Shown here one piece after another: positions 2,564 to 25,711 of a stretch of DNA of 35,526 nt (position 1 is the stretch's first letter; every line of letters begins with the position of its first letter). The DNA is taken from the NCBI RefSeq assembly GCF_001982615.1, contig NZ_MLCO01000026.1:1-35526 (forward strand), in the 5' to 3' direction. The DNA comes from Teichococcus deserti (GTDB taxonomy: Bacteria > Pseudomonadota > Alphaproteobacteria > Acetobacterales > Acetobacteraceae). The notes under the pieces were generated by a model. It was not told the origin of the DNA. It saw only the letters and a list, made by a program, of their open reading frames with translations, and did no database searches. The position numbers and the translations under genes are program-made.

Positions 2564-3301
2564 ATGGCCAGAGCTGGGCACAATGTGGCGATGCAAACCC
2601 GCCTTAAGCTTATTATGGATGATCGAGCCGTCAGCGCTGCGCACCTAGCGCGCGAAACCGGTATCAGTCCCTCTACGCTGAACAAGCTGATACATGGCCA
2701 TCGTAAAATGGCTCAGCATTGGGCCGAAAAACTTGCACCTGTCCTTGAAGTCTCTCCTGAACAGTTTTTCCGGCCTATTTCCACGGAAAACTGGGAACAG
2801 ATTGGGCATGGCGTCCTCACCGCCCCGAAGACAGAAATTAGAGAAAGCCGAAAAGGCGCTTCCTCTGTCGCCATTTCGTCAGATAGCAGCGACATACCAA
2901 TCATAAGATCGACTTTCGTCGATAGCAGGATCTTTGTATTAGAGCCTAGTCAGACGATTAATAAAATACGACGCCCGCCGGCGCTCGAATTTACAAAGGG
3001 GGTATTCGGCTTCTTCGTAGTGACTGACAACATGAACGGACGGTTCGCGAGAGGAGATTTGCTGCTCATCGACAAGGATCGTCCGCCTGCTCGAGGAGGG
3101 TTTTCCCTAATTTACACCCCTCAGGAGGACGGCTCCCTAGTCTGCGAGCTGGGGTTTGTGGGAACAGATATACATGACCAGAAGCGGTATGTGACCGACT
3201 GGAGTGTGCCCGAAGTTCCACGAAGCGGAATGGCCCTTGAAGACCGTCCAGGCACCGACGCTTACAAGATTCTCACCACAGCGGAAATTCTCGGCCTGTA
3301 G
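2564..3301 (+). CDS. Phage repressor: HTH plus S24/LexA-like domain lacking catalytic residues
   Basis: 245 residues. Residues 11-68 are an XRE-type helix-turn-helix (LARETGISPSTLNKLIHGHR). Residues 145-200 match the fold of LexA/CI C-terminal domains (FVVTDNMNGRFARGDLLLID). In cleavable family members the nucleophile serine sits in an S-M pair; here the position is Asn156 in D-N-M. The expected catalytic lysine is replaced by Cys194 in LVCEL, and no Ala-Gly or Cys-Gly cleavage dipeptide is seen in the linker. The domain may therefore only dimerise. The gene is AT-richer than its surroundings, common for acquired regulators. The start at 2564 follows GGACGGAT; an internal ATG at 2591 is an alternative. 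It probably binds the TGTCCA-N3-TGGACA sites on both sides. Confidence 0.85.
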   Translation: MARAGHNVAMQTRLKLIMDDRAVSAAHLARETGISPSTLNKLIHGHRKMAQHWAEKLAPVLEVSPEQFFRPISTENWEQIGHGVLTAPKTEIRESRKGASSVAISSDSSDIPIIRSTFVDSRIFVLEPSQTINKIRRPPALEFTKGVFGFFVVTDNMNGRFARGDLLLIDKDRPPARGGFSLIYTPQEDGSLVCELGFVGTDIHDQKRYVTDWSVPEVPRSGMALEDRPGTDAYKILTTAEILGL

Positions 3302-3304
3302 GCC

Positions 3305-3319
3305 ACCCCAATTTGGCCA
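3305..3319. promoter_or_regulatory. Degenerate copy of the right operator
   Basis: The sequence ACCCCA-ATT-TGGCCA matches 8 of 12 arm positions of the operator and begins four bases after the repressor stop. Its centre is 31 bp from that of the perfect copy at 3336-3350, mirroring the spacing on the left side. Confidence 0.4.
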
Positions 3320-3333
3320 CACCGGCGTTGACG

Positions 3334-3352
3334 TATGTCCAAAATGGACATA
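3334..3352. promoter_or_regulatory. Repressor operator, right (19-bp perfect palindrome)
   Basis: TATGTCCA-AAA-TGGACATA is a perfect 8+3+8 inverted repeat, 34 bp before the start of the antirepressor-like gene at 3387. Its core is identical to the left operator at 2510-2524. By position it should control the promoter of the rightward early operon (3387-7409). Confidence 0.72.
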
Positions 3353-3386
3353 GCTTGCCTTCGCACCCAGCGGAGGCACCCTCATC

Positions 3387-4235
3387 GTGCGTTCCCCATC
3401 CGATACTCCCGACCTGCTCGGCGCGGCCGATATCTCGGCCCCGACGCAGGCGAAGACCGCCATCGAACTCGCCGTCGTCAGCCGTGACGGCGAGCTCCGC
3501 ATCCTCGACACGGATCTGGCGGCGCGGCTCGGCTTTGAGCGTCCGCGCAAGATCCGCGAGCTGATAGCGCCCCACCGCCGGGCGCTTTCCCAGCTCGGCG
3601 AGCTGGCTACCGCCGATGTCGTTGTCGGCAAGGGCCAGCGCGCCACGGCCTACTATCTGAACAAGCGCCAGGCGATCTTCCTGACCGCGAAGTCGGAGAC
3701 GGTCGAGGCGACGGCGATCACTCTCGAAATCATCGAGCGGTTCGACGCCTACGAGCATGGCGCCATCCGGGCACCGGCACCTCTTCCCGCCCGCCGCGGC
3801 GTCACCGCGCGGGAGGCGGCTTCCACCTTCCGGGCCTATCGCGGCATCGCGAAGCTGGTCGGCCTGGACGAGAACCAGGCGGCCCTGTCCGCGGCGCGGG
3901 CGACGAAGCTGGACACCGGCATCGATCCCCTCGCCCAGATGGGCATCACCCACCTGCTGGCGCCCCAGCAGGAGTTGCTGCTGACCCCGTCCGACATCGG
4001 CGTTCGCCTTGGCGGCAAGTCGGCCATCGCGGTGAACCAGCTGCTGGCGGAGCGCGGCTTCCAGGTCGGCCGCCGCGACGGCAAGGGCCAGCCCTACTGG
4101 GAGCCGACCGCCGCTGGCGAGCCGCATGCGACGCTGCTGGATACCGGCAAGCGGCACGGCAATGGCACGCCCATCAGGCAGCTCAAATGGGGTGCCGGCA
4201 TCATCGACCTCCTGACCGAAGGAACGGTGCAGTGA
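3387..4235 (+). CDS. Rha/KilAC-type phage antirepressor-like protein
   Basis: 282 residues from a GTG start, first gene behind the right operator. Residues 24-125 resemble the phage Rha/antirepressor N-terminal domain: AIELAVVSRDGELRILDTDL, then YYLNKRQAIFLTAKSE and EIIERFDAYEHG. Residues 195-276 resemble the KilAC-like C-terminal domain (LLTPSDIGVRLGGKSAIAVN, then DGKGQPYWEPT and KRHGNGTPIRQLKW). In temperate phages such two-domain proteins bind DNA or the repressor and can relieve repression. The position directly under repressor control fits. Its stop overlaps the next start (GTGA at 4232). The exact role here is inference. Confidence 0.75.
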   Translation: MRSPSDTPDLLGAADISAPTQAKTAIELAVVSRDGELRILDTDLAARLGFERPRKIRELIAPHRRALSQLGELATADVVVGKGQRATAYYLNKRQAIFLTAKSETVEATAITLEIIERFDAYEHGAIRAPAPLPARRGVTAREAASTFRAYRGIAKLVGLDENQAALSAARATKLDTGIDPLAQMGITHLLAPQQELLLTPSDIGVRLGGKSAIAVNQLLAERGFQVGRRDGKGQPYWEPTAAGEPHATLLDTGKRHGNGTPIRQLKWGAGIIDLLTEGTVQ

Positions 4236-7514: not shown

Positions 7515-7548
7515 ACCCATCCGGAAGGACGCCTCCAGCCCCGCGCCC

Positions 7549-7596
7549 CAATAAAGCCGCGCCTCAGTAAAGCCGCGTCTCAGTAAAGCCGCGCCT
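7549..7596. repeat. Three tandem copies of a 16-bp unit across the aldolase stop codon
   Basis: Units at 7549-7564, 7565-7580 and 7581-7596 read CARTAAAGCCGCGYCT with one or two differences. On the minus strand each unit carries CGGCTTTAYTG. The unit at 7581-7596 encodes the protein's last residues (ARLY) and the first two bases of its stop TGA, and the two extra copies lie downstream. This looks like slippage duplication of the gene end, leaving a spare in-register copy of the tail. Confidence 0.8.
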
Positions 7597-8425
7597 GGCC
7601 CGCCGGCGCAGCCTCGGCCACGCCCTTGTCCAGGATCTGCCGCATCGCGCGGCCATTGGCATCCCACCACTTGGCCAGGATGCCGACATCCCAGCCGATG
7701 CAGAAATGCTTCACCCCCATCTCCAGGTAGCGCCCGGCATGGGTCGGGTCCTGCAGCTCGACGCGCGGATGCAGGCCGAGGCGCAGCGCCGTCTCGATGG
7801 TCTTCCGCTCGGCCGCCCGCACCTCCGGATCATCGCCCTGTCCCGGCTTGCCGATGCTCATCGAATAGTCCGAGGGGCCGAACTGCACCATGTCGAGGCC
7901 CGGCACCGACAGGATCGCCTCGAGGTCGTCGAGGCAGGACTTCTTCTCGACCATGATGGCGATGACGATGTCGTTGAGCGCCTCGACATAGGAGGGCTTG
8001 CCGACCTCCTGGATCATGCCGACGTCGCGCCGCATGCCGACGCCGAGCCGCCCGACGCCGCGCGAGCCGGCCTGCGCCAGCGTCTCGGCGCGCACCGCGT
8101 CGACCGCGGCGCGGGCATCCCCGACATCGCGGATATCGGCGAAGAGCACGCTCTGGAAGCCCGAGCCGATCGCCCGCATCGCCTGGTGCGTGTATTGCGT
8201 CTGCTCGATCTTGATCATGCCGCCGACCCCGGCCAGCTCGAAGGCGCGGCCCAGATTGTCCAGGTCGTGCAGGTCGAAGGGCGCGTATTCGGCGGTGAAC
8301 TCTATATAGTCGTATTGCCGCGACTGGCCCACCAGCTCGACCAGGGTCGGCCAGGTGGAGAGGAGATGCGTCCCCACCGTCGGCTGGTTGGCGTTCAGCT
8401 TCTCGCGCAGCAGATTCCGACGCAT
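7580..8425 (-). CDS. HpcH/HpaI aldolase/citrate lyase family protein
   Basis: 281 residues, normal for the family of class II pyruvate aldolases and citrate-lyase-like enzymes (TIM barrel, divalent metal). The metal ligands appear present: Glu160 in IAIMVEKKS and Asp186 in QFGPSDYSMSIG. Other canonical positions differ. The usual G-E-H-A-P motif reads TAEYAPFD, with Tyr47 for the catalytic His, and the R-x-P motif region reads GMIKIEQ. It may therefore be a divergent subfamily with a different 2-oxo-acid substrate or chemistry. GGGGAGGG upstream is a good ribosome-binding site. It is the last gene of the leftward operon, where it might process a carbon fragment released upstream. That role is inference. 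Confidence 0.85.
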   Translation of the reverse strand: MRRNLLREKLNANQPTVGTHLLSTWPTLVELVGQSRQYDYIEFTAEYAPFDLHDLDNLGRAFELAGVGGMIKIEQTQYTHQAMRAIGSGFQSVLFADIRDVGDARAAVDAVRAETLAQAGSRGVGRLGVGMRRDVGMIQEVGKPSYVEALNDIVIAIMVEKKSCLDDLEAILSVPGLDMVQFGPSDYSMSIGKPGQGDDPEVRAAERKTIETALRLGLHPRVELQDPTHAGRYLEMGVKHFCIGWDVGILAKWWDANGRAMRQILDKGVAEAAPAGQARLY

Positions 8426-8535
8426 GGCGGCACCCTCCCCTTTCCCGTTTGGCCGGCAGCGGCGGGCGCCGCCGCCCCGGCCGGGTCAGGCTCGCGGAAG
8501 TCGCCGGCTTCGGCAAGGCAGGATCGTCGGCGGCA

Positions 8536-10146
8536 TCACCCCGGCCGCACCATGGTCGCCGCCGTGTAGCCGCTCATATTCGGCTCGAAGCGCAGGCCGG
8601 GGCGCAGGCCCCAGACCAGCGAGAGGTGGAAGAGCGGGATGATCGGCAGGTCGTCGGCGACCAGCTGCACCGCCTCCTGCAGCACCTTCTCCCGCGCGGC
8701 GGGCTCGAGGAGGGTGAAGGATCTTTCGGTCAGCGCGTCGAGCGCCGGGTTGGAATAGAGGCTCCAGTTGTTGGCGCCCGCCCGCTTGGCGCGGTCGACC
8801 GTGCTGACGACGTTGCTGAGGAAATAGGAGGCCTCGCCGGTCGAGCTCGCCCAGCTGTGCAGCCAGACGCCGTATTCCTGGCGGCTGGCGCGGGCGCTGA
8901 AGGCGGCATAGGGCAGCGCGTCCACCACCGTCGCCACGCCGATCCGCGTCCACATCTGCGCCACCGCCTGGGCGATGCGGCTGTCATTGGCGAAGCGGTC
9001 GGTCGGCGTGTGCACCACCAGGCGGAAGCCGCGCGGGAAGCCCGCCTCGGCCAGCAGGCGGCGCGCCGCCTCGGGGTCGAAGCGCGGCACGCCCACCGCC
9101 GGATTGGCCGAGTAGAAGCCGGCCGGCAGCCATTGGCCGCTGGGCGTGCCGCGGCCTTCCATCACCCGCTCGACCAGCGCCGCGCGGTCGATGCCGAGCG
9201 ACAGCGCCTGCCGCACCCGCAGATCCAGCAGCGGATTCTTCGGCAGCGGCTTGCCGTCGGCGTCGGTGATGTCGGGCAGCTCGCCGGCACGGGCGAAGCC
9301 GGGCTGCATGAAGGTCAGCCGGGTGCTCTGGGTCTCCACCACCTGGACGCGGCTGTCGCGCGCCAGCGCCTGGGCGTCGTTGGACGAGACCTCGTCGATC
9401 AGGTCGACATCGCCGGCCAGCAGCGCCGCGCTGCGCGCCCCGGCCTGCGGGATGATGCGGAAGACCACGCGTTCCCAGGGCTCGGCGCCGCCGAAATAGG
9501 CCTCGTTGCGGGTCAGCTCCACCGTGCTGCCGGGCTGGAAGGCGGCCAGCTTGTAGGGGCCGGTGCCGATCGCGGCGCGGCGGCTGTTGTAGTCCTCGGT
9601 CGTCGCGCCCTCGCCGGCATGGCGGGAGACGATGGCGACGAAGGTCAGGTCGTTGGGCAGCGAGGGATGCGGCCCGGCGGTGTGCAGCCGGACGGTCAGC
9701 GGATCCACCACCTCGACCCGGGTGATCGGGCGGACATAGCCGGCGAGGCTGCCCGGGCTGCCGGCGACGGTCGGGATGCGGCCGATGGTGAAGGCCACGT
9801 CATCGGCGGTGAAGTCCCGCCCGTCATGCCATTTCACGCCCGGGCGCAGGCGGAATTCCCAGATCCTGTCCTCGACCGGCGCCCAGCTGAGCGCCAGGCC
9901 GGGGATCGGGCGCAGCCGGGCGTCGCGCTCGACCAGCCGGCTGAAGACATGCAGCGCCAGGTTGAAGTTCGGCTGGAAGGCATAGAAATGCGGATCGGCC
10001 GAGCTGGGCGTGGTGGCGGTGGCGATGGTCAGCACCGTCTTCGCCGCGGCGTGTGGCTGGGCCGATGCCGCCTCTGGCAGGGCGCCAAGGGCCAGCAGGC
10101 CGGCCAGGCCGCGCCGTGTGATCGCCGAATTCTGCATGCGGACCAT
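8536..10146 (-). CDS. Peptide/nickel-type ABC solute-binding protein (SBP family 5)
   Basis: 536 residues, typical for DppA/OppA-like periplasmic binding proteins. The N-terminus has a twin-arginine-like signal (ITRRGLAGLLALGALPEAAS) with likely cleavage after ASA. Family landmarks include LRPGVKWHDGRDFTADDVAF, AAIGTGPYKLAAFQPGSTVE and DLRVRQALSLGIDRAALVER. The start at 10146 is used; an ATG three codons later is possible. It lies in the leftward operon without its own permeases or ATPases, 71 bp after the acetyltransferase, and could feed one of the two importers encoded divergently. The 71-bp gap is AT-rich and could hold a secondary promoter. Ligand unknown. Confidence 0.9.
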   Translation of the reverse strand: MVRMQNSAITRRGLAGLLALGALPEAASAQPHAAAKTVLTIATATTPSSADPHFYAFQPNFNLALHVFSRLVERDARLRPIPGLALSWAPVEDRIWEFRLRPGVKWHDGRDFTADDVAFTIGRIPTVAGSPGSLAGYVRPITRVEVVDPLTVRLHTAGPHPSLPNDLTFVAIVSRHAGEGATTEDYNSRRAAIGTGPYKLAAFQPGSTVELTRNEAYFGGAEPWERVVFRIIPQAGARSAALLAGDVDLIDEVSSNDAQALARDSRVQVVETQSTRLTFMQPGFARAGELPDITDADGKPLPKNPLLDLRVRQALSLGIDRAALVERVMEGRGTPSGQWLPAGFYSANPAVGVPRFDPEAARRLLAEAGFPRGFRLVVHTPTDRFANDSRIAQAVAQMWTRIGVATVVDALPYAAFSARASRQEYGVWLHSWASSTGEASYFLSNVVSTVDRAKRAGANNWSLYSNPALDALTERSFTLLEPAAREKVLQEAVQLVADDLPIIPLFHLSLVWGLRPGLRFEPNMSGYTAATMVRPG

Positions 10147-10217
10147 CCATCAGGAATGCTTTACACACTTCCGATAGGTGATTTATGCCATATCCGGCAA
10201 TGGGGAAAACACGGCGG

Positions 10218-10724
10218 TCAGGCCAGGGCGGCCTCCGCCGTGACCGTCAGTCGCTTTTCGAAAGGCAGGGTGCGCAGCGCCTGCAGGTCGGCGGCGGGGT
10301 CGTAGAGCGCCGTGTAGCCGCGCCGCAGATAGAGGCCGACCGCCTCCGGCTGGCGGAAGCCGGTGGTCAGGTAGATCCGTCCGTAGCCCTGCTCGCGCGC
10401 CGCCTGCTCCAGCGCCGCCAGCACGCGGCTGGCCAGGCCCTGGCGCCGCAGGTCCTGCCGCGTCCAGATCCGCTTGAACTCGGCGGTGCTGTCGTCGTAG
10501 CGCTTGAAGGCGCCGCCGCCGATGGTCTCGCCGTCGCGCAGCAGCAGCAGGAACTGGCCCTGTGGCGGGGCGAAGGCCTCGGGCGGGTAGCGGTTCATCT
10601 CGGCCGCGGCGCCGGCGACGTCGAAGAAGGTGCCGTAGCGGCTGTCATATTCCTCGAGCAGCGCTGCCACCAGCGGCCGGGCGCGCGGATCGGCGGGGGT
10701 GGTGGAGACGATCAGGTCGCGCAT
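10218..10724 (-). CDS. GNAT-family N-acetyltransferase
   Basis: 168 residues from the ATG at 10724 (MRDLIVSTTPADPRARPLVA), preceded by GGAAGA. A longer frame upstream runs inside the amidohydrolase gene and is rejected. The acetyl-CoA-binding motif A is clear: FKRIWTRQDLRRQGLASRVL, with the R-x-x-G-L/I-A pyrophosphate loop. It is followed by IYLTTGFRQPEAVGLYLRRG, as in small-molecule and amino-acid acetyltransferases. It lies 13 bp after the M20 amidohydrolase. In the B. subtilis Ytm and Yxe sulfur-salvage loci a GNAT enzyme N-acetylates S-modified cysteine before FMN-dependent cleavage. The same role is proposed here from context. Confidence 0.88.
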   Translation of the reverse strand: MRDLIVSTTPADPRARPLVAALLEEYDSRYGTFFDVAGAAAEMNRYPPEAFAPPQGQFLLLLRDGETIGGGAFKRYDDSTAEFKRIWTRQDLRRQGLASRVLAALEQAAREQGYGRIYLTTGFRQPEAVGLYLRRGYTALYDPAADLQALRTLPFEKRLTVTAEAALA

Positions 10725-10737
10725 CGCGGGTCTTCCG

Positions 10738-11919
10738 TCAGGAGGGGGCGAGATACGCCTCGGCCAGGCCGGACCAGAGCGCGGCGCCGGGCAGCAGCAG
10801 GGCGTCGTTGAAGTCGAAGCGCGGATTGTGCAGCGCCGGCCCTTCCCCCGCGCCGAGGAAGAGATAGCTGCCGGGCCGCGCCAGCAGCAGATGGGCGAAA
10901 TCCTCGCTGGCGGTGCGCGGGCGGAAGTCAGGCAGGATGGCATCCTGGCCCAGGAGGCGGCGCGCCACGTCGCGGGCGAAGCCGGTTTCCGCCGCATGGT
11001 TGACCAGCGCCGGAAAGCCGCGGCGGTATTCGACCTGCGCAGTGGCGCCGAAGCTGTCCGCCTGGGCCCGGGTGATCGCAGGAATCCGTCGCTCCAGCAG
11101 CGCGCGGGCGGCTTCACGATAGCTGCGCGCGGTGAGCTTGAGCGAAACGCTGTCGGGAATGACATTGGCCGCCTCGCCGCCCTGGATGGCGCCGACGGTG
11201 ACCACCGCCATCTCCAGCGGATCCAGGTTGCGCGACACGACCGTCTGCAGCGCGGTGATGACATGCGCGGCGACGACCACCGGATCCACCGTTTCCTGCG
11301 GCGCGGCGCCATGGCCGCCGCGGCCGAGAATGCTGATCAGCGCCAGGTCGACCGCCGCCATGGCCGGGCCTTCGACGAAGCCGAAGCGGCCCTCGGCCTC
11401 GCCCGGCCAGGAGTGCAGGCCGTAGACGGCATCGACGGGAAAGCGGTCGAACAGCCCCTCGGCCAGCATCCGCCTGGCGCCGGAGCCGGTCTCCTCCGCC
11501 GGCTGGAAGATCAGCGTCAGACGGCCGTCGAACTCGCCATGCAGCGCCAGATCGCGCGCCGCGGCCAGCAGGATGGCGACATGCCCGTCATGGCCGCAGG
11601 CATGCATGACGCCGGGGCTGCGGCTGGCATGCGGCAGGCCGGTCTGCTCGGCGATCGGCAGCGCATCCATGTCGGCGCGCAGCCCCAGGCTGCGGCGGCC
11701 ATGGCCGCGCTGCAAGGTCGCGACCAGCCCGGTGCCGGCGATGCCGCTTTCCACCTGATAGCCCCAGCCTGCGAGCATTCGCGCGGCGGTCTCGGCCGTG
11801 CGGTGCTCGGCGAAGGCGAGCTCCGGATGGTGATGCAGGTCCCGGCGCAGGGCGGCGAAAGGCTCCAGCCCCGCGGCCAGCCGCGCCAGCGGGCCCGGCC
11901 GCAGCAGCGTCTCGCTCAC
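10738..11919 (-). CDS. M20-family amidohydrolase (N-acyl amino acid deacylase)
   Basis: 393 residues, standard length for M20D hippurate hydrolase/N-acetyl-amino-acid deacetylases. Metal and catalytic motifs are intact: [12 protein letters not shown] (residues 25-36), [11 protein letters not shown] (79-89), [14 protein letters not shown] (105-118, Cys108 and His110), [14 protein letters not shown] (138-151, Glu142/Glu143) and YGLHSWP (166-172). The lid domain starts near [11 protein letters not shown]. The start is a GTG overlapping the TGA of the monooxygenase gene (GTGA), so the two are coupled. It probably removes the N-acyl group after oxidative cleavage, as YtnL/YxeP-type enzymes do. Substrate is inferred. 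Confidence 0.9.
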
Positions 11920-13256
11920 GAGGCCTTGGCCAGGGCGGGTTCGGGATGGGCCGCAGCGCGGATGGCGCGATAGGGCAGGCCGAGATTCTCGCGCAGCGTG
12001 GCGCCGCGCAGCACCGGGTCGTGCCGGCCGCGCGCCTCCAGCACCGGCAGCACGTAGCGGATGAAGTCGTCCAGCCCCTGCGCCACCACCGGGAAGCCCA
12101 GGATGAAGCCGTCGGCGGCGCCCTGCTCGATCCAGCGGATCATCTCGTCGGCGACTTCCTCGCCGCTGCCGATGAAATGCGGCTTCGGCGTCGCCGAGGC
12201 CAGCGCCACCTGGCGGAGCGTCAACCCCTTCTCGCGCGCGTCGCGCTTGATGCGGTCGGTGGTGGAGCGGAAGCTGTTGGCGCCGATGTCGCCCAGCTCG
12301 GGAAACGGCGCATCGAGCGGATAGGCCGAAAAATCATGATGGTCGAAGAAGCGGCCGAGATAGGCCAGCGCCTCGTCGATGCTCAGCAGGTCGCGGATCG
12401 CCGCGTATTTCTGCTCGGCCTCGGCGCGGGTCGGGCCGGTGATCGGGCCGATGCCGGGCATGATCTTGATCTGGTCGGGATCGCGGCCGTGCCTGGCGGC
12501 GCTGGCGCGGACGGCCTCGCGGAAGCGCTTCGTCTCCTCGAAGGAGGGAGAGTTGGTGAAGACGGCGTCGGCGTATTTCCCGGCGAGGTCGATGCCGGGC
12601 TCGGAGGAGCCGGCCTGGAAGATCACCGGCTGGCCCTGCGGCGAGCGCTGGATGTTCAGCGGCCCCTCGACCTTGAAGAACTGTCCTTCATGGTCCAGGC
12701 GGCGGAACTTCTTCCGGTCGAAGAACTCGCCGGTCTCGCGGTTGCGCGGGAAGGCGCCGTCCTCCCAGGACTCCCACAGGCCTTGCGTCACCTGCAGATA
12801 TTCATCGGCGATGCGGTAGCGCAGCGCATGCTCGGGATGGGCGCGGCTGTAGTTGCGCGACGACCCTTCCAGCGGCGAGGTCACCACGTTCCAGCCGGCG
12901 CGCCCCCCGCTGATCAGGTCGAGCGAGGCGAATTGCCGCGCGACCGTGAAGGGATCGCTGTAGGAGGTGGAGACGGTGCCGGCCAGGCCGATCTTCTCCG
13001 TCACCGTCGCCAGCGCCGAGAGGATGGAGATCGGCTCGAAGCGGTTCAGGAAATGCGGAATCGACTTCTCGTTGATATAGAGGCCGTCGGCCACGAAGGC
13101 GAAGGCGATGCCGGCGGCCTCGGCCTGCTTCGCGCGGTCGATGTAGAAGCCCAGGTTGACGCTGGCATCCGCCGGACCGCTGGGATGCTTCCAGGCATTC
13201 ATGTGGCCGCCGGCGCCATGCAGCATGACGCCCAGCGGGATCTTCTTGTCGGTCAT
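11916..13256 (-). CDS. LLM-class FMN-dependent monooxygenase, NtaA/SnaA/DszA family
   Basis: 446 residues from the ATG at 13256 ([20 protein letters not shown]); a longer open frame upstream belongs to the preceding gene. Features of the NtaA/SnaA/DszA family are clear: [51 protein letters not shown] and [10 protein letters not shown]. Members use reduced FMN from a partner reductase to oxidise N- or S-containing substrates (nitrilotriacetate, EDTA, dibenzothiophene sulfone, S-alkyl cysteines). Length and family match B. subtilis YtnJ/YxeK, which cleave C-S bonds of N-acetylated cysteine derivatives. It is 16 bp downstream of a second luciferase-like gene and coupled to the M20 gene. No flavin reductase is in the window. 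Confidence 0.92.
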
Positions 13257-13272
13257 GACAGGGGGTCCTTGG

Positions 13273-14259
13273 TCAGGCCGCGACCGGCTGGCGCGCCGGG
13301 GCCAGCAGGTCGAGCATGGCGGCGCGTTCGGCGAAAGCAGTGGAGGGCGTGTCGAGAATGAATTCGGCGATGCCATGCTCGCGCTGGAGCGCGTCGAGCG
13401 CGGCATGGATGTCGTCGGGATTGCCGGCCAGCAGGCTGGGCCGCACCTCCTCGATCCGCCAGGTGGTGGCGCCGGCCTGGCGGGCATATTCCTCGGCCGC
13501 GTCCCGCGTGCCCAGGTTGAAGCTCTGGCCGGTCGGCAGATGCACCTTGTAGGTGCGCAGGGAGGCCGCGCGGCGCTCGGCCTCGGCGCGGCTGGCATCG
13601 GCCAGCACATGCAGCGCCAGCAGCGGCGCCTGGCCGCTGTCGTCGCGGTAGCGCGCCAGGCTGTCGCGCAGCTTGGCGTCGTCGCCGTTCAGATGCCCGG
13701 CATAGCAGAATTGCCAGCCATGCCGCGCCGCCAGGGCCGCGCTGTCGGCGCTGGCGCCGAGCACGATCTTCTGCGGCGCCTCCGGCGGGATCGGCGTCAG
13801 CTGCGCCGCGGCATGCGGATGGTCCTGCGGCAGGCTGTGCGTGAGGAAGCCCTCGAGCTCCGCAAAGCGCGCGGCAAAGTCCTGGGCGTCGCCGCGCAGC
13901 GCGCGGGTGGAAAACGGCAGCCCGCCCGGCGCCTTGCCGATGCCGAGATCGACGCGCCCCGGCGCCAGCGTCGCCAGCAGCGAGAAGGTCTCGGCGACCT
14001 TGTAGGGGGCGTAATGCTGCAGCATCACGCCGCCGGAGCCGACGCGGATGCGGCTGGTGCGCGCCAGGAGGAAGGCCGAGAGCACCTCGGGCGCGACGCT
14101 GGCGAGGCCGGGACTACCGTGATGCTCGGCCACCCAGAAGCGGTGATAGCCCAGCTGCTCCGCCCGCTGCGCCAGGGCCAGGGTGTTCTGCAGCGCCTCG
14201 GCCGCGCTGGCGCCGGCGGGGATGGGGCTCTTGTCGAGCAGGCTCAGGCGGTAGCGCAT
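13273..14259 (-). CDS. LLM-class flavin-dependent oxidoreductase, MsnO8/YtmO-like
   Basis: 328 residues from the ATG at 14259 ([20 protein letters not shown]). The frame is open 20 codons further upstream, but that extension is not family-like. Bacterial-luciferase-like TIM-barrel motifs are present: [40 protein letters not shown] and [16 protein letters not shown]. This is the MsnO8 group that includes B. subtilis YtmO, an S-oxidising partner of YtnJ. It is the first gene of the leftward operon. The pairing of a short YtmO-like and a long YtnJ-like enzyme is the strongest clue to the locus function. FMNH2 use is family knowledge; the substrate is inferred. Confidence 0.9.
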
Positions 14260-14646: not shown

Positions 14647-15192
14647 ATGTCCAGCCTGATCGGCTACCTCGCCCAAAAGCGTGACGCCCTGTTCCGCCTG
14701 CGTGAGCGCGCCGCCCGCCCTGACGCCCGCCCGCAGCCGCTCAGCGCCCGGGTCAGCGCCGAGGGCCGCAGCGGCATCCGCCGCATCCGCATCCGCGATT
14801 TCCAGCTGATCAGCGACAGCCCCGCGAGCTTCGCCGGCTACGACCTGGGGCCGAGCTCGCCCGAGCTGCAGCTCGGCGTGCTGGGCAGCTGCCTGACGCA
14901 TACCTTCCTGATCCAGGCGGCGCTGCTGCAGATCCCGCTGCACCGGGTCGAGGTGCAGGTCGACGGCCAGATCGATCCGCGCAGCGGCCAGCCCGGCTTC
15001 GAGACCGTGCCGCGCAACCCGCATGCGCTGCGCTACACCGTCGCGCTCGACTCCCCGGCCTCCGAGGAGGAGCTCGCGCAGCTGCATGCCGCCGTCCAGG
15101 CGAATTGTCCGATCCTGCACCTGCTGCGCGACCCGCAACCGATCGATGGCGCCCTCGCCCGTCTGCCTGCCCAGAGCGACGCGGCCGAATAG
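14647..15192 (+). CDS. OsmC-family protein (thiol peroxidase-like)
   Basis: 181 residues from the ATG at 14647 (MSSLIGYLAQKRDALFRLRE). The two conserved OsmC cysteines are visible: Cys82 in LGVLGSCLTHTFLIQAALLQ and Cys154 in AVQANCPILHLL. Homologues reduce organic hydroperoxides or, in related subfamilies, act on thiols. It is the first gene of the rightward operon, opposite the LLM monooxygenases. A role in dealing with reactive oxygen or sulfenic intermediates from flavin monooxygenase chemistry is plausible but inferred. Confidence 0.85.
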   Translation: MSSLIGYLAQKRDALFRLRERAARPDARPQPLSARVSAEGRSGIRRIRIRDFQLISDSPASFAGYDLGPSSPELQLGVLGSCLTHTFLIQAALLQIPLHRVEVQVDGQIDPRSGQPGFETVPRNPHALRYTVALDSPASEEELAQLHAAVQANCPILHLLRDPQPIDGALARLPAQSDAAE

Positions 15193-15232: not shown

Positions 15233-16843
15233 ATGAACCGACGCGACCTGATGCTGGCCGGCCTCGGCCTGGCCGCCCTGCCCGATCTCGCCCTGGCGCA
15301 AGGCCATGCGCATGCGACCGCCGCGGGGACGCCGGTGCGCGGCGGCACCGCGCGCATCGTGGTGGCCGAGCCGCCGATCCTGACCTCGGCCTTCATCACC
15401 ACCATGAACATCGGCATGGTGTCGTCGAAGATCCTCGAAGGCCTGGTCAGCTACGATCTCGAGCTGAAGCCGGTGCCGGCGCTGGCCGAATCCTGGGACA
15501 CGGCGGAGGACGGGTTGTCCGTCACCTTCAACCTGCGCCGCAATGTCCGCTGGCATGACGGCCGCCCCTTCGGCAGCGCCGATGTGCGCTTCACCTTGCT
15601 GGAGGTGTGGAAGAAGCTGCATCCCTTCGGCCGCGCCGTCTTCGCCAACGTGACCGCGGTGGAGACGCCGGACGACCACACGGTGACCATCCGCCTCTCG
15701 GCGCCGGCGCCCTATCTCTTCAACTACATCAACACCTATGGCGCGCAGATCCTGCCGCGCCATGTCTATGAAGGCACCGACGTCCTGCAGAACCCGGCCA
15801 ACACGGCGCCGATCGGCACCGGGCCTTTCCGGTTCAAGGAATGGGTGCGCGGCAGCCATGTCGCGCTGGAGCGCAACGCCGATTACTGGCAGCCGGGCAA
15901 GCCCTATCTCGACGGCGTGCTGTTCCGCTTCATCCCCGATCCCGTCGCCCGCACCGTGGCGCTGGAGGCCGGCGAGATCGACGTCACCATCGGCTCGCTG
16001 GTGCCGGTGACCAGCCTGCGCCGCTTCTCGGATGCGGCGAAGTACACGATCAACACCGATGACGGCCGCTTCCTCGCCTCGATTTTCCTGGCGCAGATCA
16101 ATGTGCGCCGCCCCTATGTCAGCGACCGCCGCGTGCGCCAGGCGCTGTCGCATGCGATCGACCGCGCGGCGCTGGTGCGGCTGGTCTGGCAGGGCTACGG
16201 CAAGCCGGCGACCGGGCCGATCCCTTCCTCCGTCAGCCAGTACTATGCGCGCGGCAATCCGCAGGGCTTCGACCCGAAGCGCGCCGAGGCGTTGCTGGAC
16301 GAGGCCGGCTTCAAGCGCGGCGCCGACGGCAAGCGCTTCCGCATCAACCTGGTCTCCGGCAGCGGCGACAGCCTGGAATCTAACCGCGCGGGCGAGTTCA
16401 TCAAGCAGTCCCTCGCCCGCATCGGCGTCGAGCTCGAGCTGATCATCGAGGATTCCGCTGCCTATCTGCGCCGCGTCTACACCGAGGCCGACTACGACAT
16501 CATGACGTCGAGCCTGCACAAGCTGCCCGATCCGACGCTGGGCGTGCAGCGTCTGTACTGGACGAAGAACATCGTCAGGGGCGCGCCCTGGACCAACGGC
16601 TCCGGCTATTCGAACCCCGAGCTCGACCGCATCATGGAAGCCGCCGCCGCCGAGGGCGATGCCGCGAAACGCCGCGCGCTGGTCACCCGCTGGCAGGCGA
16701 TCGTGCAGGAGGATGCGCCGATCCTCGACCTGGTGGAGCTGACCTGGACCACCGTCTCCACAGCGCGCTTCCGCAAGGACCGTCCACAGGGCGACGGCAT
16801 GTTCGCCGGGCTGGAGGATGCATGGCTGGCGCTGGCACGCTGA
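15233..16843 (+). CDS. Peptide/nickel-type ABC solute-binding protein (SBP family 5)
   Basis: 536 residues. The Tat-like signal peptide MNRRDLMLAGLGLAALPDLA ends near ALAQ. Family-5 landmarks include NLRRNVRWHDGRPFGSADVR, APIGTGPFRFKEWVRGSHVA and DRRVRQALSHAIDRAALVRL. The start at 15233 gives the signal peptide; the longer open frame upstream overlaps the OsmC gene. Its last 22 bases overlap the first permease gene, so it belongs to that transporter. DppA-like proteins bind peptides, opines, nickel chelates or glutathione. The cargo is not evident from sequence. Confidence 0.92.
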   Translation: MNRRDLMLAGLGLAALPDLALAQGHAHATAAGTPVRGGTARIVVAEPPILTSAFITTMNIGMVSSKILEGLVSYDLELKPVPALAESWDTAEDGLSVTFNLRRNVRWHDGRPFGSADVRFTLLEVWKKLHPFGRAVFANVTAVETPDDHTVTIRLSAPAPYLFNYINTYGAQILPRHVYEGTDVLQNPANTAPIGTGPFRFKEWVRGSHVALERNADYWQPGKPYLDGVLFRFIPDPVARTVALEAGEIDVTIGSLVPVTSLRRFSDAAKYTINTDDGRFLASIFLAQINVRRPYVSDRRVRQALSHAIDRAALVRLVWQGYGKPATGPIPSSVSQYYARGNPQGFDPKRAEALLDEAGFKRGADGKRFRINLVSGSGDSLESNRAGEFIKQSLARIGVELELIIEDSAAYLRRVYTEADYDIMTSSLHKLPDPTLGVQRLYWTKNIVRGAPWTNGSGYSNPELDRIMEAAAAEGDAAKRRALVTRWQAIVQEDAPILDLVELTWTTVSTARFRKDRPQGDGMFAGLEDAWLALAR

Positions 16844-17847
16844 GCGCGGCGCCCGCGGCACGCGGCGGGCTGCCGCCGCTGCTGCGCCGCCTGCTGCAGG
16901 TGGTGCCGGTGCTCTTCGGCATCGCTACGCTCAACTTCCTGATTCTCCAGCTGGCGCCTGGCGACGTCGTCGACGTCCTGGCCGGCGAGGCGGGGGCGGC
17001 GACGCCCGAGACCATGGCCGCGCTGCGCCAGAGCTTCGGCCTGGACCAGCCGGTCTGGCTGCAATACCTGCGCTATCTCGGCCAGCTTGCCAGCCTCGAT
17101 CTCGGCCATTCCTACCGGCTGAACCTGCCGGTGCGCGCGCTGATCCTGACGCGGCTGCCGCCCACCCTGCTGCTGATGGTCTCGGCGCTGCTGCTGGCCA
17201 TCGTGCTGGGCTCGCTGGCGGGCATCCTGGCAGCGCGGCAGGTCGGCGGCTGGCTCGACACGCTGCTCTCCGGCGTCACCCTGCTGAGCTATGCGGTGCC
17301 GACCTTCTGGCTCGGGCTGATGGCCATCGTGCTGTTCTCGGCGCGGCTCGGCTGGCTGCCCTCGGGCGGCATGCTGACCATTGGCGCGTCGCATGACGGG
17401 TTGGCACTGCTGCAGGACCTGGCGGCACATCTGGTGCTGCCGGCGGTGACGCTCAGCACCTTCTACCTCGCGGTCTATGCGCGGCTGGTGCGCAGCGCCA
17501 TGCTGGAGCTGCACGGTGCCGACTTCATCCGCACCGCCCGCGCCAAGGGCGCCGGCGAATGGCGCATCACGCTGCACCACGCCTTCCGCAACGCGCTGCT
17601 GCCGATGGTCACCATGGCGGGCTACCAGGCGGCCTCGCTGCTCAGCGGTGCGGTGCTGGTGGAGACGGTGTTCTCCTGGCCCGGCCTCGGCCGCCTCGCC
17701 TATGAGGCAATCCGCACCCGCGACCTGAACCTGCTGCTCGGCATTCTGTTCTTCAGTTCGATCCTTGTCGTCATCGTCAACATTGCCATCGACGGGGTCT
17801 ATCGCCTGGTCGATCCGCGCGTGGCGCCGAGGGCGCGGCGGGCATGA
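16822..17847 (+). CDS. ABC transporter permease, DppB type
   Basis: 341 residues, six predicted membrane segments. The first (LLQVVPVLFGIATLNFLILQ) is typical of DppB/OppB, followed by LAPGDVVDVLAGEAG and DLGHSYRLNLPV. The coupling-helix EAA-like loop reads HGADFIRTARAKGAGEWRIT, with the C-terminal segment VETVFSWPGLGRLAYEAI. It overlaps the binding-protein gene by 22 bp and the next permease by four, so the transporter is translationally coupled. Confidence 0.92.
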   Translation: MAGAGTLSAAPAARGGLPPLLRRLLQVVPVLFGIATLNFLILQLAPGDVVDVLAGEAGAATPETMAALRQSFGLDQPVWLQYLRYLGQLASLDLGHSYRLNLPVRALILTRLPPTLLLMVSALLLAIVLGSLAGILAARQVGGWLDTLLSGVTLLSYAVPTFWLGLMAIVLFSARLGWLPSGGMLTIGASHDGLALLQDLAAHLVLPAVTLSTFYLAVYARLVRSAMLELHGADFIRTARAKGAGEWRITLHHAFRNALLPMVTMAGYQAASLLSGAVLVETVFSWPGLGRLAYEAIRTRDLNLLLGILFFSSILVVIVNIAIDGVYRLVDPRVAPRARRA

Positions 17848-18689
17848 GCACGCGCCATCCCGGCCTGCTGCGCCGGCTGCTGACGCACCGCCAGGGCGGC
17901 GCCGGCCTGCTGCTGCTGCTGGCCATCCTGCTGCTGGCCGCGGCCGGCCCGCTGCTCTGGCCGGGCGACCCCTGGGAGATGGCGGCGCCGCCAATGCTCT
18001 GGCCTGGCGAGGACGCCGCCAACCCGCTCGGCTCCGACGTGATGGGGCGTGACCTGCTGACCGGACTGGTCTCCGGCGCGCGGGTTTCGCTGATGGTGGG
18101 GCTGGTCAGCACGCTGATCGCCGCCGTCCTGGGGACGCTGATCGGCGCAGTGGGCGGCTATCATGGCGGCCGCATCGACGCCGCGCTGATGCGGCTGACC
18201 GAGTTGTTCCAGACGGTGCCGACCTTCGTCCTCGCCGTGGTGCTGGTCGCTGTCTTCCGCCCCTCGGTCGCGACCGCGGTGCTGGCCATCGGCATCGTCT
18301 CCTGGCCGGCGACGGCGCGGCTGGTGCGCGCCCAGGTGCTGTCGCTGCGCGGCCGCGACTTCATCCTGGCGGCCGAGACCTACGGCATGGGCACCGCGCG
18401 GCTGCTCTGGACACAGATCCTGCCCAATGCGCTGCCGCCGGTCATCGCCATCTCCAGCCTGACCATCGCCCATGCCATCCAGACCGAGGCGGCGCTGGCC
18501 TTCCTCGGCCTCGGCGACCCGAACGTGATGAGCTGGGGCACCATCATCGGCGGCGGCCGCGAGCAGCTGGTGGAGGCCTGGTATGTCTGTGGCCTGTCCG
18601 GCATCGCGCTGGTCGTCACCGTCCTCGCCTTCAACCTGCTGGGCGAGGGGCTGAACGACTGCCTCAACCCGCATCTGCGCAGCCAATGA
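17844..18689 (+). CDS. ABC transporter permease, DppC type
   Basis: 281 residues with an N-terminal membrane anchor (GGAGLLLLLAILLLAAAGPL), the DppC signature NPLGSDVMGRDLLTGLVSGA and five further membrane segments. The ATPase-coupling loop reads LRGRDFILAAETYGMGTARL. Overlaps of four bases with both neighbours (ATGA) mark one operon. It pairs with the 16822 permease to form the heterodimeric channel of importer 1. Confidence 0.92.
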   Translation: MSTRHPGLLRRLLTHRQGGAGLLLLLAILLLAAAGPLLWPGDPWEMAAPPMLWPGEDAANPLGSDVMGRDLLTGLVSGARVSLMVGLVSTLIAAVLGTLIGAVGGYHGGRIDAALMRLTELFQTVPTFVLAVVLVAVFRPSVATAVLAIGIVSWPATARLVRAQVLSLRGRDFILAAETYGMGTARLLWTQILPNALPPVIAISSLTIAHAIQTEAALAFLGLGDPNVMSWGTIIGGGREQLVEAWYVCGLSGIALVVTVLAFNLLGEGLNDCLNPHLRSQ

Positions 18690-19684
18690 CCATGACCCTG
18701 CTCGAGGTTTCCTCCCTGCGCACCAGCTTCGCGACCCGCTCGGGACGGCTCGGCATCCTGCGCGACGTCAGCTTCGCCATCGCCCGCGGCGAGACCGTCG
18801 CGCTGGTCGGCGAAAGCGGCAGCGGCAAGTCGGTGACCGCCGCCTCGATCCTGCGGCTGGTGGAGGCCGCCGGCGGCCGCATCGATGCCGGCCGCGTCAG
18901 CTTCGAGGGCGAGGACCTGCTGTCCCTCTCCCCCGCCAGGCTGCGCGCGCTGCGCGGCGGCCGCATCGGCATGATCTTCCAGGAGCCACTCTCGGCGCTG
19001 AACCCGGTGCAGCGCATCGGCGACCAGATCGCCGAGGCGGTGCGGCTGCATCGCCCGCTGTCGCGCCGCGCCGCCTGGGGCCGCGCGGTGGAGCTTCTCT
19101 CCCTGGTGCAGATCCCGGCGCCCGGCCTGCGCGCGCGCGACTATCCGCATCAATTGTCGGGCGGCCAGCGGCAGCGCGCGATGATCGCCATGGCGCTGGC
19201 CTGCGATCCGGCGCTGCTGATCGCCGACGAGCCGACCACCGCGCTCGACGTCATCACCCAGGCGCAGATCCTGTCGCTGCTTGCCGAGCTGCGCGACCGG
19301 CTGGGCATGGCGCTGCTGCTGATCACCCATGACCTGGGCGTGGTCGCCGGCGTCGCCGACCGCATCGTCGTGCTCTATGCCGGCCAGGTTGTCGAGCAGG
19401 GGCCGGTGGCCGAGATCTTCGCGGCGCCGGCGCATCCCTACACACGCGGGCTGCTCGACGCCGTGCGGCTGGACACCCTGACGCCGGGCACCGCGCTGCC
19501 GGAGATCCCCGGCCTGGTGCCGCCGCTCGACGCGCTGCCGGCCGGCTGTGCCTTCGCGCCGCGCTGCGGCCGCGCCGATGCGCGCTGCCGGTCCGCAGCG
19601 CCGCCCATGCCGCCCGGGGGCGCGCGCCAGGCCGCCTGCTTCCATCCCCTGCCCGCCCCGCTGCCCGGAGGCCACGCCGCATGA
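18686..19684 (+). CDS. ABC transporter ATPase, DppD type
   Basis: 332 residues. Walker A is GESGSGKS, the signature LSGGQRQR, Walker [14 protein letters not shown] and the switch histidine ITHDLG. The C-terminal oligopeptide/dipeptide extension carries a cysteine cluster ([14 protein letters not shown] plus a later Cys), as in DppD-like ATPases where related clusters hold an Fe-S centre. It overlaps both neighbouring genes by four bases. It supplies one of the two nucleotide-binding subunits of importer 1. Confidence 0.93.
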
Positions 19685-20631
19685 CCGCGCCGCTGCTGGA
19701 AATCCGCCGCGCCGTTCGGCATTTCGACACGCCGGCCGGGCGGGTGCGCGCGGTGGATGATGTCAGCCTCAGCATCCAGCCCGGCGAGACGCTGGGGCTG
19801 GTGGGCGAGAGCGGCTGCGGCAAGTCGACCCTGGCGCGGCTGGCGATGAAGCTGGTGCCGCCGCAATCCGGCGCCATCCTCTTCGAGGGCGACGACGTCG
19901 CGACCGCCAATCGCGCCACCCTGGCCCGCTATCGCGCGCGGATGCAGATGGTCTTCCAGGATCCGCTGTCGGCGCTGAACCCGCGCGAGAGCATCTTCCG
20001 CATCCTGGAGCAGCCGCTGCTGGTGCATCGCCGCGGCGACCGCGCGGCGCGGCAGGCGCGCATCGCGCAGCTGCTGCAGCAGGTCGGGCTGCGGCCGGAA
20101 GTCGCGCTCCGCTATCCGCACGAGCTGTCGGGCGGCCAGCGGCAGCGCGTCGGCATCGCCCGCGCCCTGGCGCTGGAGCCGCGGCTGCTGCTCTGCGACG
20201 AGGCGGTCTCGGCGCTCGACGTCTCGGTGCGCGCCCAGGTGCTGAACCTGCTGCTGCGCCTGCGCGCCGAGCTCGGCCTGGCGGCGCTGTTCATCTCGCA
20301 CGATCTCGCGGTGGTGCGGCATGTCGCCGATCGCGTGGCGGTCATGTATCTCGGGCAGGTGGTGGAGGAAGCGCCGCGCGACGCGCTGTGGCAGCAGCCG
20401 CGCCATCCCTATACCCGGGCGCTGATGGCGGCGACGCCGGTCGCCGATCCCGCCGAGGCGCGCGCCCGCCCGCCTTTGCCGCTGCAGGGCGAGTTGCCCG
20501 ATCCGATCGATCCGCCCGCCGGCTGCCGCTTCCATCCGCGCTGTCCGATGGCCGAGCCGCGCTGCCGCGTCGAGGCGCCGGTGCTGCGCGCCATCGCCGC
20601 CGGTCACGCCGTCGCCTGCCACCGCCCCTGA
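19681..20631 (+). CDS. ABC transporter ATPase, DppF type
   Basis: 316 residues. Walker A is GESGCGKST, the signature [15 protein letters not shown], Walker B LLLCDEAVSALD and the switch ISHDLAVV. The C-terminal family domain has CRFHPRCPMAEPRC. The ATG overlaps the DppD stop (ATGA). With the two permeases and DppD it completes importer 1. The next gene begins after 29 bp with its own ribosome-binding site, so it could be regulated separately. Confidence 0.93.
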   Translation: MTAPLLEIRRAVRHFDTPAGRVRAVDDVSLSIQPGETLGLVGESGCGKSTLARLAMKLVPPQSGAILFEGDDVATANRATLARYRARMQMVFQDPLSALNPRESIFRILEQPLLVHRRGDRAARQARIAQLLQQVGLRPEVALRYPHELSGGQRQRVGIARALALEPRLLLCDEAVSALDVSVRAQVLNLLLRLRAELGLAALFISHDLAVVRHVADRVAVMYLGQVVEEAPRDALWQQPRHPYTRALMAATPVADPAEARARPPLPLQGELPDPIDPPAGCRFHPRCPMAEPRCRVEAPVLRAIAAGHAVACHRP

Positions 20632-20660
20632 GCGCGACACCTTCCGTCTGGAGACCCATC

Positions 20661-22277: not shown

Positions 22278-22294
22278 GCCCGGGTCGCCGCGCC

Positions 22295-23260
22295 ATGTCT
22301 CGACAGAGCTTCCTTCCCTTCGCGGCGCGGCGGCTGGGCCATGCGCTGGTCGTCATCCTGCTCGCCTACAGCTTCACCTTCCTGATCATCTCCGTGCTGC
22401 CGGGCGACCCGGTCAGCAACATGCTGCTCGACCCCGAGAACGGCTTCACCGAGGAGGAGATCGCACCGATCATCGCGCATTACGGGCTGGACCGTCCGGT
22501 GCTGGAGCAGTGGTGGAGGGCGATCTCCCGCTTCGCGCTGGGCGATCTCGGCATTTCGCTGCGCGCCAGCCGCCCGGTCTCCGCCATGCTGCTGGAGGCG
22601 CTGCCCTCCACCCTGGTGCTGGCGGGCACGGCCATGCTGGTGGCGCTGCTGCTGGCGCTGGCCATCGCCTATGCCTCGCAGAGCCTGCCGCGGCGCTGGG
22701 GCCAGGGGGTGGCGCGGGTGCTGCCGGCGCTGTCGCTCTCGGTGCCGAGCTTCGTCATCGGCCTGGTGCTGATCCAGGTCTTCGCCTTCCAGCTCGGCCT
22801 GTTCCGCATCACCGATCCGAACGGCGCCGCCGCCACCGTCTTCGCGGCCCTCGCCCTCGGCATCCCGGTCTCGGCGCAGATCGCCGAGGTGCTGATCGCC
22901 AATCTCGACCACGAGGCGGGCCAGGAGTATTTCGCCGTGGCCAGGGCGCGCGGGCTGCGGCTGTCGCAGCTTTTCGCGCGGCACCAGCTGCGGCCCTCGG
23001 CCCTGCCGGTGGTGACGATGATCGCGGTCAGCATCGGCGAGCTGCTGGGCGGGTCGCTGATCACCGAGACCATCTTCGGCCGCAAGGGCGTGGGCTCCCT
23101 GGTGCAGAGCGCCGTGGTGACGCAGGACTTCCCCGTGCTGCAGTCGCTGGTCTCGCTGGCCGCCGTGGTCTTCGTCCTGGTCAACCTGGCGGCCGACCTG
23201 CTCTACCCGCTGCTCGACCCGCGGCTGCGGCGGCGCGCCGCGGCGGGGCGGCCGGCATGA
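22295..23260 (+). CDS. ABC transporter permease, DppB type (importer 2)
   Basis: 321 residues with six predicted membrane segments. The first (ALVVILLAYSFTFLIISVLP) is followed by GDPVSNMLLDPENGFTEEEI and DLGISLRASRPVSAML. The coupling loop is EAGQEYFAVARARGLRLSQL, and the end is typical (ETIFGRKGVGSLVQSAVV). It starts 17 bp after the binding protein and overlaps the next permease by ATGA. Confidence 0.92.
   Translation: MSRQSFLPFAARRLGHALVVILLAYSFTFLIISVLPGDPVSNMLLDPENGFTEEEIAPIIAHYGLDRPVLEQWWRAISRFALGDLGISLRASRPVSAMLLEALPSTLVLAGTAMLVALLLALAIAYASQSLPRRWGQGVARVLPALSLSVPSFVIGLVLIQVFAFQLGLFRITDPNGAAATVFAALALGIPVSAQIAEVLIANLDHEAGQEYFAVARARGLRLSQLFARHQLRPSALPVVTMIAVSIGELLGGSLITETIFGRKGVGSLVQSAVVTQDFPVLQSLVSLAAVVFVLVNLAADLLYPLLDPRLRRRAAAGRPA

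Positions 23261-24079: not shown

Positions 24080-24090
<11 letters not shown>
23257..24090 (+). CDS. ABC transporter permease, DppC type (importer 2)
   Basis: 277 residues from the ATG at 23257. The frame is open far upstream, but that part is a shadow of the DppB gene. DppC motif HWLGTDHLGRDLYARIVHGT and coupling loop STAVFVEASALAGGRPAHVL are present, with about six membrane segments. It overlaps the upstream stop by four bases and the fused ATPase gene by eleven. Confidence 0.9.

Positions 24091-25710
<1,620 letters not shown>

Positions 25711-25711
<1 letters not shown>

Follow-up and report, generated by a model that had tools for sequence, protein, structure and literature searches.

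What does a tightly packed group of two monooxygenases, a deacylase and an acetyltransferase accomplish in Teichococcus deserti, and what is the peptide-type binding protein behind it doing there? The window, by which we mean the whole 35,526-nucleotide (nt) stretch analysed (contig NZ_MLCO01000026.1, positions 1 to 35,526), carries five close-packed genes on its minus strand, between 14259 and 8536. The first four form a four-enzyme cassette (10218-14259, minus strand) that very probably belongs, as an alphaproteobacterial version, to the Cmo pathway of S-alkylcysteine salvage, its operon apparently split from the amino-acid importer and a peptide-type solute-binding protein (SBP) standing in the importer's place. 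Gene content, order, family and clade are read directly from the DNA, and every reaction is assigned through work on B. subtilis, homology and synteny. The five genes are as follows.

13273-14259, minus strand: CmoO/YtmO-like monooxygenase dependent on flavin mononucleotide (FMN), 328 amino acids (TIGR03558, 315 bits; cut-off 167)
11916-13256, minus strand: CmoJ/YtnJ-like monooxygenase of the NtaA family of luciferase-like monooxygenases (LLM), 446 amino acids (TIGR03860, 508 bits; cut-off 279.7)
10738-11919, minus strand: M20 deacylase, YtnL-like, 393 amino acids (TIGR01891, 335 bits; cut-off 153.8)
10218-10724, minus strand: GNAT acetyltransferase, 168 amino acids (PF00583, 60.5 bits with the frame extended by one codon at its start; cut-off 20.7)
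8536-10146, minus strand: SBP_bac_5 (Dpp/Opp-type) solute-binding protein (PF00496, 278 bits; cut-off 32.4)

From CmoO to the SBP, the successive junctions measure 16 nt, a 4-nt overlap, 13 nt and 71 nt, and an aldolase-like gene lies 110 nt further on. An initial annotation of this DNA had placed two LLM enzymes, an M20 deacylase and a GNAT enzyme in one leftward operon; all of these genes are where it put them, and their family scores exceed the cut-offs. The same four genes occur in the same order in other genera, so the set is beyond chance.

Two monooxygenases of the YtmO and YtnJ clades

Two B. inaquosorum loci served as the reference for the ytm/ytn and yxe proteins. The names YtmO, YtnJ, YtnL, YtmI, YxeK, YxeL and YxeP are attached to their genes by presumed operon order, with a direct test for the YtnJ match (96%) only. 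The window CmoO is 42% identical to this YtmO and falls with it in a 43-row clade at 100/100 support, with nine other TIGR03558 proteins outside.

Against solved structures, the window CmoJ scores highest with 3sdo (638 bits) and YtnJ (531), followed by 7e36 (305), DszA (243), dimethyl-sulfide monooxygenase (208), riboflavin lyase (201) and EmoA, the monooxygenase of ethylenediaminetetraacetate (EDTA; 199); alkanesulfonate monooxygenase 1m41 gives 35 bits. In a 72-row tree the protein and YtnJ share a 47-row clade (100/98) that excludes YxeK. In a 66-row tree, which is the first tree minus eight long or doubtful rows plus DszA and DmoA, the same 47 rows again form a clade (99/96). Forcing the three CmoJ proteins of the genus together with YxeK in the 66-row tree is rejected by the approximately unbiased test (p-AU 4.75e-101), the group of three having been named only after the first tree had been seen; by this constrained tree the window CmoJ is no member of the YxeK clade. 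It matches all 22 signature positions that separate the CmoJ clade from YxeK, DszA and DmoA. It also keeps 140 of the 142 positions conserved across the 43 other rows of the clade, which speaks for unchanged chemistry rather than for the larger, peptide- or chelate-like substrate that the initial annotation had suggested.

The initial annotation had proposed salvage of S-modified cysteine along Ytm/Ytn or Yxe lines in an alphaproteobacterium-like background, to be checked by trees of both monooxygenases, and had counted grouping with nitrilotriacetate (NTA)/EDTA or alkanesulfonate enzymes against itself. Both proteins fall in the YtmO and YtnJ clades, away from YxeK, DszA and DmoA, and the scores of EmoA (compared by score alone) and 1m41 lie far under that of YtnJ, so that this condition does not refute the salvage reading, which is supported in its Ytm/Cmo form. 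The class assignment agrees as well, since in the CmoJ tree plasmid copies from Rhizobium and Sinorhizobium are mixed among genomes of this class. The 72-row tree also takes in PDB entry 3sdo, labelled as a nitrilotriacetate monooxygenase, which falls inside the CmoJ clade. The label looks like annotation by family name, and we flag 3sdo as a CmoJ-clade protein that is likely misnamed.

Deacylase and acetyltransferase

The M20 protein shares 42% identity with YtnL and 35% with YxeP, and has the HACGHD and PAEE segments in common with them. In PMC12757645, ScmP (YxeP), YhaA and YtnL are named as N-acetylcysteine deacetylases, with deacetylation of N-acetylcysteine shown for YtnL and ScmP. The window protein is of the right family to be a candidate N-acetylcysteine deacetylase of the YtnL/ScmP kind, but the models DoeB2 and CpsA reach similar scores. 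Loci that lack the M20 gene (L039 5178-6203, L099, L104) have an aspartoacylase-type enzyme near the GNAT, possibly as a substitute deacetylase.

The GNAT is 64% identical to its Comamonas cassette counterpart and is no ortholog of YtmI, belonging to another subfamily. Of 30 other loci from proteobacteria, 25 have a GNAT of the window subfamily no more than 8 kb from CmoJ, and the acetyltransferase step in proteobacterial cassettes is probably filled by this different subfamily.

Proposed pathway

In PMC10863075, the Cmo steps are acetylation, stereospecific S-oxidation by CmoO, cleavage of the sulfoxide C-S bond by CmoJ to a sulfenic acid and an aldehyde, reduction, and deacetylation. Applied to the window, the GNAT enzyme would N-acetylate an S-alkylcysteine, and CmoO would oxidise the thioether of the N-acetyl-S-alkylcysteine to the sulfoxide. 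CmoJ would then cleave the sulfoxide C-S bond, yielding N-acetylcysteine sulfenic acid and an aldehyde; a cellular reductant would convert the sulfenic acid to N-acetylcysteine, from which the M20 enzyme would remove the acetyl group, leaving cysteine as a sulfur source. In this lineage the operon would have been split, with the importer on another contig (C142) and its place taken by an SBP whose family has undergone great expansion in the genus.

The likeness to the B. subtilis ytm/ytn operon (read in B. inaquosorum) lies in the CmoO and CmoJ clades, the YtnL-like M20 enzyme, the presence of a GNAT, and the logic of acetylation, oxidation, cleavage and deacetylation. The window differs in a GNAT that is not YtmI-orthologous, a different gene order, and a Dpp-type SBP with no cystine-type importer in the operon. 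Moreover, the LysR-like gene of the B. inaquosorum locus (L015) has no counterpart among the genes identified beside the window cassette, where the divergent gene is OsmC-like. With the B. subtilis yxe/scm operon the cassette shares a GNAT, an NtaA-family monooxygenase and an M20 deacylase. However, YxeK lies outside the CmoJ clade, and the components listed in PMC9706529 include no CmoO. The window has an M20, a GNAT and a YxeK homologue, of which the GNAT and the monooxygenase are not yxe orthologs.

Distribution of the cassette

For the phylum, 397 genomes were drawn evenly and searched for CmoJ at E<=1e-145; 29 of them match, the window genome included. The other 28 contribute 30 matching places, all of which were scored for neighbours within 8 kb of CmoJ. 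CmoO is present in 26, a GNAT in 25, M20 in 22 and an aspartoacylase-type enzyme in 2; an amino-acid ATP-binding cassette (ABC) importer occurs in 25 and its binding proteins in 25, while SBP_bac_5 proteins occur in 3 and Dpp permeases in 2. These counts use identity floors together with similarity to window or plasmid proteins, and miss divergent substitutes such as the GNAT of genome G1064. Three loci (L123-L125) hold no cassette gene and fall outside the YtnJ clade. Beyond these loci, G460 has CmoO, CmoJ and GNAT, with no M20 or cassette importer on its contig; the contig of the G566 locus is 5.8 kb long; and in G037 and G119 both M20 and importer are missing nearby. At the threshold of E<=1e-145, and with the window genome counted in each, 3 of 387 genomes match in the class sample and 5 of 397 in the family sample.

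Among plasmid records, 270 match CmoJ at E<=1e-100, 159 of these at 60-80% identity. Eight hand-picked plasmid loci out of the 270 all have CmoO, GNAT and an amino-acid ABC importer (8/8), and six of the eight have M20. The operons of the Rhizobium, Sinorhizobium, Comamonas and Haematobacter plasmids share the four-enzyme order, with CmoJ proteins 71-74% identical to that of the window, but their GNAT is followed directly by an amino-acid ABC importer with binding proteins, unlike that of the window. Together these cassettes extend the recently solved Bacillus pathway widely among proteobacteria. No study of a proteobacterial or Dpp-linked cmo cassette was found in the open-licence literature, which is weak evidence of absence.

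The displaced amino-acid importer

In the congener G006 the amino-acid ABC importer comes immediately after the GNAT, which is the standard arrangement. In the window operon no amino-acid-type ABC importer is found, and the best match of the window genome to the G006 importer lies on contig C142 (78% over its length), a likely ortholog. The C142 importer used as a query finds matches of 94% in the congener G011 (contig C24), 79% in G006 (its one match, inside the operon) and 46% in G001; no match is found in G003 or G009 at E<=1e-120. Because likely orthologs stand on C142 and C24, it seems that the importer moved or the operon was split, rather than that the importer was lost. The initial annotation was right that the operon has a Dpp-type SBP and no amino-acid ABC importer, but an amino-acid importer is not absent from the genome. 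What is new here is modest: two congeners have the importer outside the operon and a peptide-type SBP in its place. Across the cassettes compared, the importer is the part of the pathway that changes.

Beside the C142 importer stand a binding protein, a 53% GNAT paralog, and full members of TIGR04027 and TIGR04029. At this locus (G000:C142, L094, 6702-12738) the TIGR04027 monooxygenase scores 499.5 bits (cut-off 412.9) and the TIGR04029 CMD protein 191.9 bits (cut-off 100.75); contig C24 of G011 has the same layout. Within the cmo cassette itself, no protein exceeds the cut-off of TIGR04027, TIGR04028 or TIGR04029.

The SBP behind the cassette (8536-10146) is kept at the same place in G011 at 93% identity. 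It belongs to a genus-wide expansion and does not group with the CmoJ-linked SBPs of other lineages. The window genome has 95 SBP_bac_5 matches and 29 luciferase-family matches in 6.25 Mb, and with 95 such matches the adjacency of SBP and cassette is weak evidence for a link. Family scores do not point to a ligand, as the Opp4A, DppA, Opp5A_nikA and GsiB models all give 118-131 bits, and the PDB matches of the binding proteins are spread over peptide-, heme- and opine-type proteins.

Peptide-type importers beside CmoJ in other lineages

The idea of a peptide-type importer gains some support from other lineages. In Paenibacillus sp. BSR1-1 (L167 2009-12665), CmoO, CmoJ, an SBP_bac_5 protein, DppB, DppC and a fused DppDF follow one another on one strand, with a gap of 12 nt between CmoJ and the SBP. 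Downstream of this unit are a monooxygenase weakly similar to the C142 TIGR04027 protein, a YxeK-like gene, and then a second CmoJ with an amino-acid importer. A plasmid of Pantoea sp. SS70 (L168 6507-13472) has one operon on one strand, in the order GNAT, SBP_bac_5, DppB, DppC, DppDF and CmoJ, and its CmoJ is 95% identical to that of genome G1067. In G1067 (L127 3091-10589), the DppDF of the importer ends 10 nt before CmoJ, and the locus is covered to 96% by the best Pantoea plasmid record at 88.9% DNA identity. No CmoO or M20 lies alongside in these Pantoea and G1067 loci. In genome G1064 (L126 2041-12165), CmoO, GNAT and CmoJ lie near a Dpp-type set, from which a monooxygenase gene on the opposite strand separates them; the same genome holds a separate amino-acid-importer version of the cassette elsewhere.

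Like the window, the Dpp-linked operons of Pantoea, G1067 and Paenibacillus combine a CmoJ-clade enzyme with a peptide-type importer. They differ in that CmoJ shares one operon with a whole importer (in Pantoea with a YtmI-type GNAT and without CmoO and M20), whereas the window has a lone SBP of another SBP lineage: the binding proteins of the Paenibacillus, Pantoea/G1067 and G1064 loci are not close to it. In contrast to the window, the Dpp-linked loci of G1064 (44%) and Pantoea (37%) have a GNAT of the YtmI kind. The two Dpp-linked gammaproteobacterial CmoJ proteins each depart at four of the 142 conserved positions, one of them a signature position.

As a tentative extension, about which we are doubtful, Cmo-type C-S cleavage may have been coupled repeatedly to Dpp/Opp importers, in this alphaproteobacterial genus, in Pantoea and its kin and in Paenibacillus, through more than one SBP lineage, and may there recover cysteine from S-alkylated cysteine in small peptides. 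If such coupling were true, glutathione-conjugate debris would be linked directly to sulfur supply. If peptide-type importers do feed the pathway, some orphan Dpp-type SBPs of soil bacteria would also gain a substrate.

Alternative explanations

Several observations weigh against assigning the cassette to S-alkylcysteine salvage. The five-gene unit contains no flavin reductase or regulator. The M20 protein scores 305 bits against the DoeB2 model and 302 against CpsA, both under the models' own cut-offs. Neither YtmI (E=0.28) nor YxeL is significantly similar to the GNAT or orthologous to it, and the acetylation step is consequently placed by gene position. YxeK is still 46% identical to the window CmoJ, so that the substrate range is not to be read from identity. 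Furthermore, the cassette is sporadic in the genus: of the 17 members searched, 4 (the window genome included) yield a CmoJ match at E<=1e-130, and among these the G009 match is only 48% identical, has one internal stop and lies outside the YtnJ clade.

The 46% identity of YxeK and the common enzyme classes speak for S-(2-succino)cysteine degradation like that of the Bacillus yxe/scm operon (described in PMC9706529), with a YxeK-type one-step cleavage. For this cassette we consider it very unlikely, as CmoJ groups with YtnJ, the constraint with YxeK is rejected, and the window has a separate CmoO, which is not among the yxe components listed there; a second pathway of that kind may exist elsewhere in the genome. 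An unrelated operon for the degradation of sulfonates, chelates or nitrilotriacetate is hardly credible. The family name NtaA/DmoA (TIGR03860) and the PDB label of 3sdo would suggest it, but EmoA scores far less than YtnJ and 3sdo itself is in the CmoJ clade. M20 and GNAT enzymes are not known to have a role in such chemistry, which counts against it further.

A Dpp-linked variant, which imports S-alkylated cysteine as a peptide (gamma-glutamyl or cysteinyl-glycine conjugates) and frees the cysteine, deserves more weight than either, though we still judge it unlikely for this locus. The SBP_bac_5 gene lies directly behind the cassette and is kept in G011, and the Paenibacillus, Pantoea and G1064 loci all bring CmoJ together with Dpp genes. 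Yet an amino-acid importer is retained elsewhere in the genome, on C142, and the SBP belongs to the genus-wide expansion, in a genome so rich in such proteins that one of them beside any operon says little. The Pantoea operon and the G1067 locus are without CmoO and M20, and departures from the 142 conserved positions are few, two in the window CmoJ and four in each of the two gammaproteobacterial Dpp-linked proteins. Salvage of S-alkylcysteine by the Cmo route, with the importer displaced, is therefore the reading that we prefer.

Neighbouring genes

The region around the five-gene unit holds the following features.

7580-8425, minus strand: HpcH/HpaI-family (aldolase-like) protein (PF03328, 56 bits; cut-off 25)
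14647-15192, plus strand: OsmC-like gene heading the divergent Dpp set (PF02566, 47.7 bits)
15236-20631, plus strand: first divergent Dpp-type importer, with SBP, DppB, DppC, DppD and DppF (SBP PF00496, 304 bits; the others by permease and ATPase families)
20607-27021, plus strand: second Dpp-type importer (SBP, DppB, DppC, fused DppDF), then an NtaA-family LLM (TIGR03860, 352 bits)

The aldolase-like gene, which the initial annotation had added to the pathway, is rejected as a part of it. Synteny between the window and G011 breaks at 8546, beside the SBP gene end at 8536. The G011 copy is 89% identical and lies at C3:9580-10422 (plus strand), inverted and about 16 kb from the cassette unit (C3:26082-31803, minus strand). 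No such gene is found in the 18 + 34 loci scanned, each of about 21 kb or less. What stands of the initial annotation as a whole is the Cmo-type cassette, which is real; the aldolase membership and the absence of an amino-acid importer are not supported. No terminator-like site was found between the SBP gene and the aldolase-like gene, so read-through transcription into the latter may occur. An alignment of the protein suggests that a tyrosine stands at the presumed position of the catalytic histidine of HpaI. The 3' end of the gene is overlapped by tandem repeats (7541-7596; step 16 nt), and beyond that end, at 2564-4235, are genes resembling phage repressors and anti-repressors (weak matches to PHROGs 4 and 63).

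Between the window and G011, gene order is kept across the five-gene unit and most of the divergent region, at about 87-90% DNA identity. The first Dpp set is collinear in G011 for SBP, DppB and DppC, with DppD and DppF missing; the comparison of G011:C3:34421-38044 with window 18686-20631 marks the place. It is possible that both G011 permease pairs use one ATPase, the fused DppDF of the second set, which is conserved there together with its NtaA-family LLM. In G006 the whole first Dpp set is on the same contig as the cassette. The SBP of the second set (20607-22277) finds its best NCBIfam model in TIGR04028 at 298 bits, under the cut-off of 468.5; with TIGR04027 and TIGR04029 this model belongs to a group of families of unknown function (KPN_01858, KPN_01854, Avi_7170).

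The OsmC-like gene was considered as a part of the cassette and rejected. It is found in 2 of 55 scanned loci, those of G011 (91%) and G006 (78%), each time beside the same Dpp set, and in G006 the gene and the Dpp set are about 20 kb from the cassette. It is a neighbour that travels with the Dpp set and not with the cassette.

An AMP nucleosidase gene comes after the divergent array that ends at 27021; inside it ARAGORN calls a tRNA-Arg(CCG) at 27559-27640, probably falsely. Further on, at 33492-35460, are a YeeE/TsuA-like membrane protein and a rhodanese/mercaptopyruvate sulfurtransferase-like gene, both under the NCBIfam cut-offs. The pair is conserved at 92-94% in G011, and these are possible further sulfur genes near the array.

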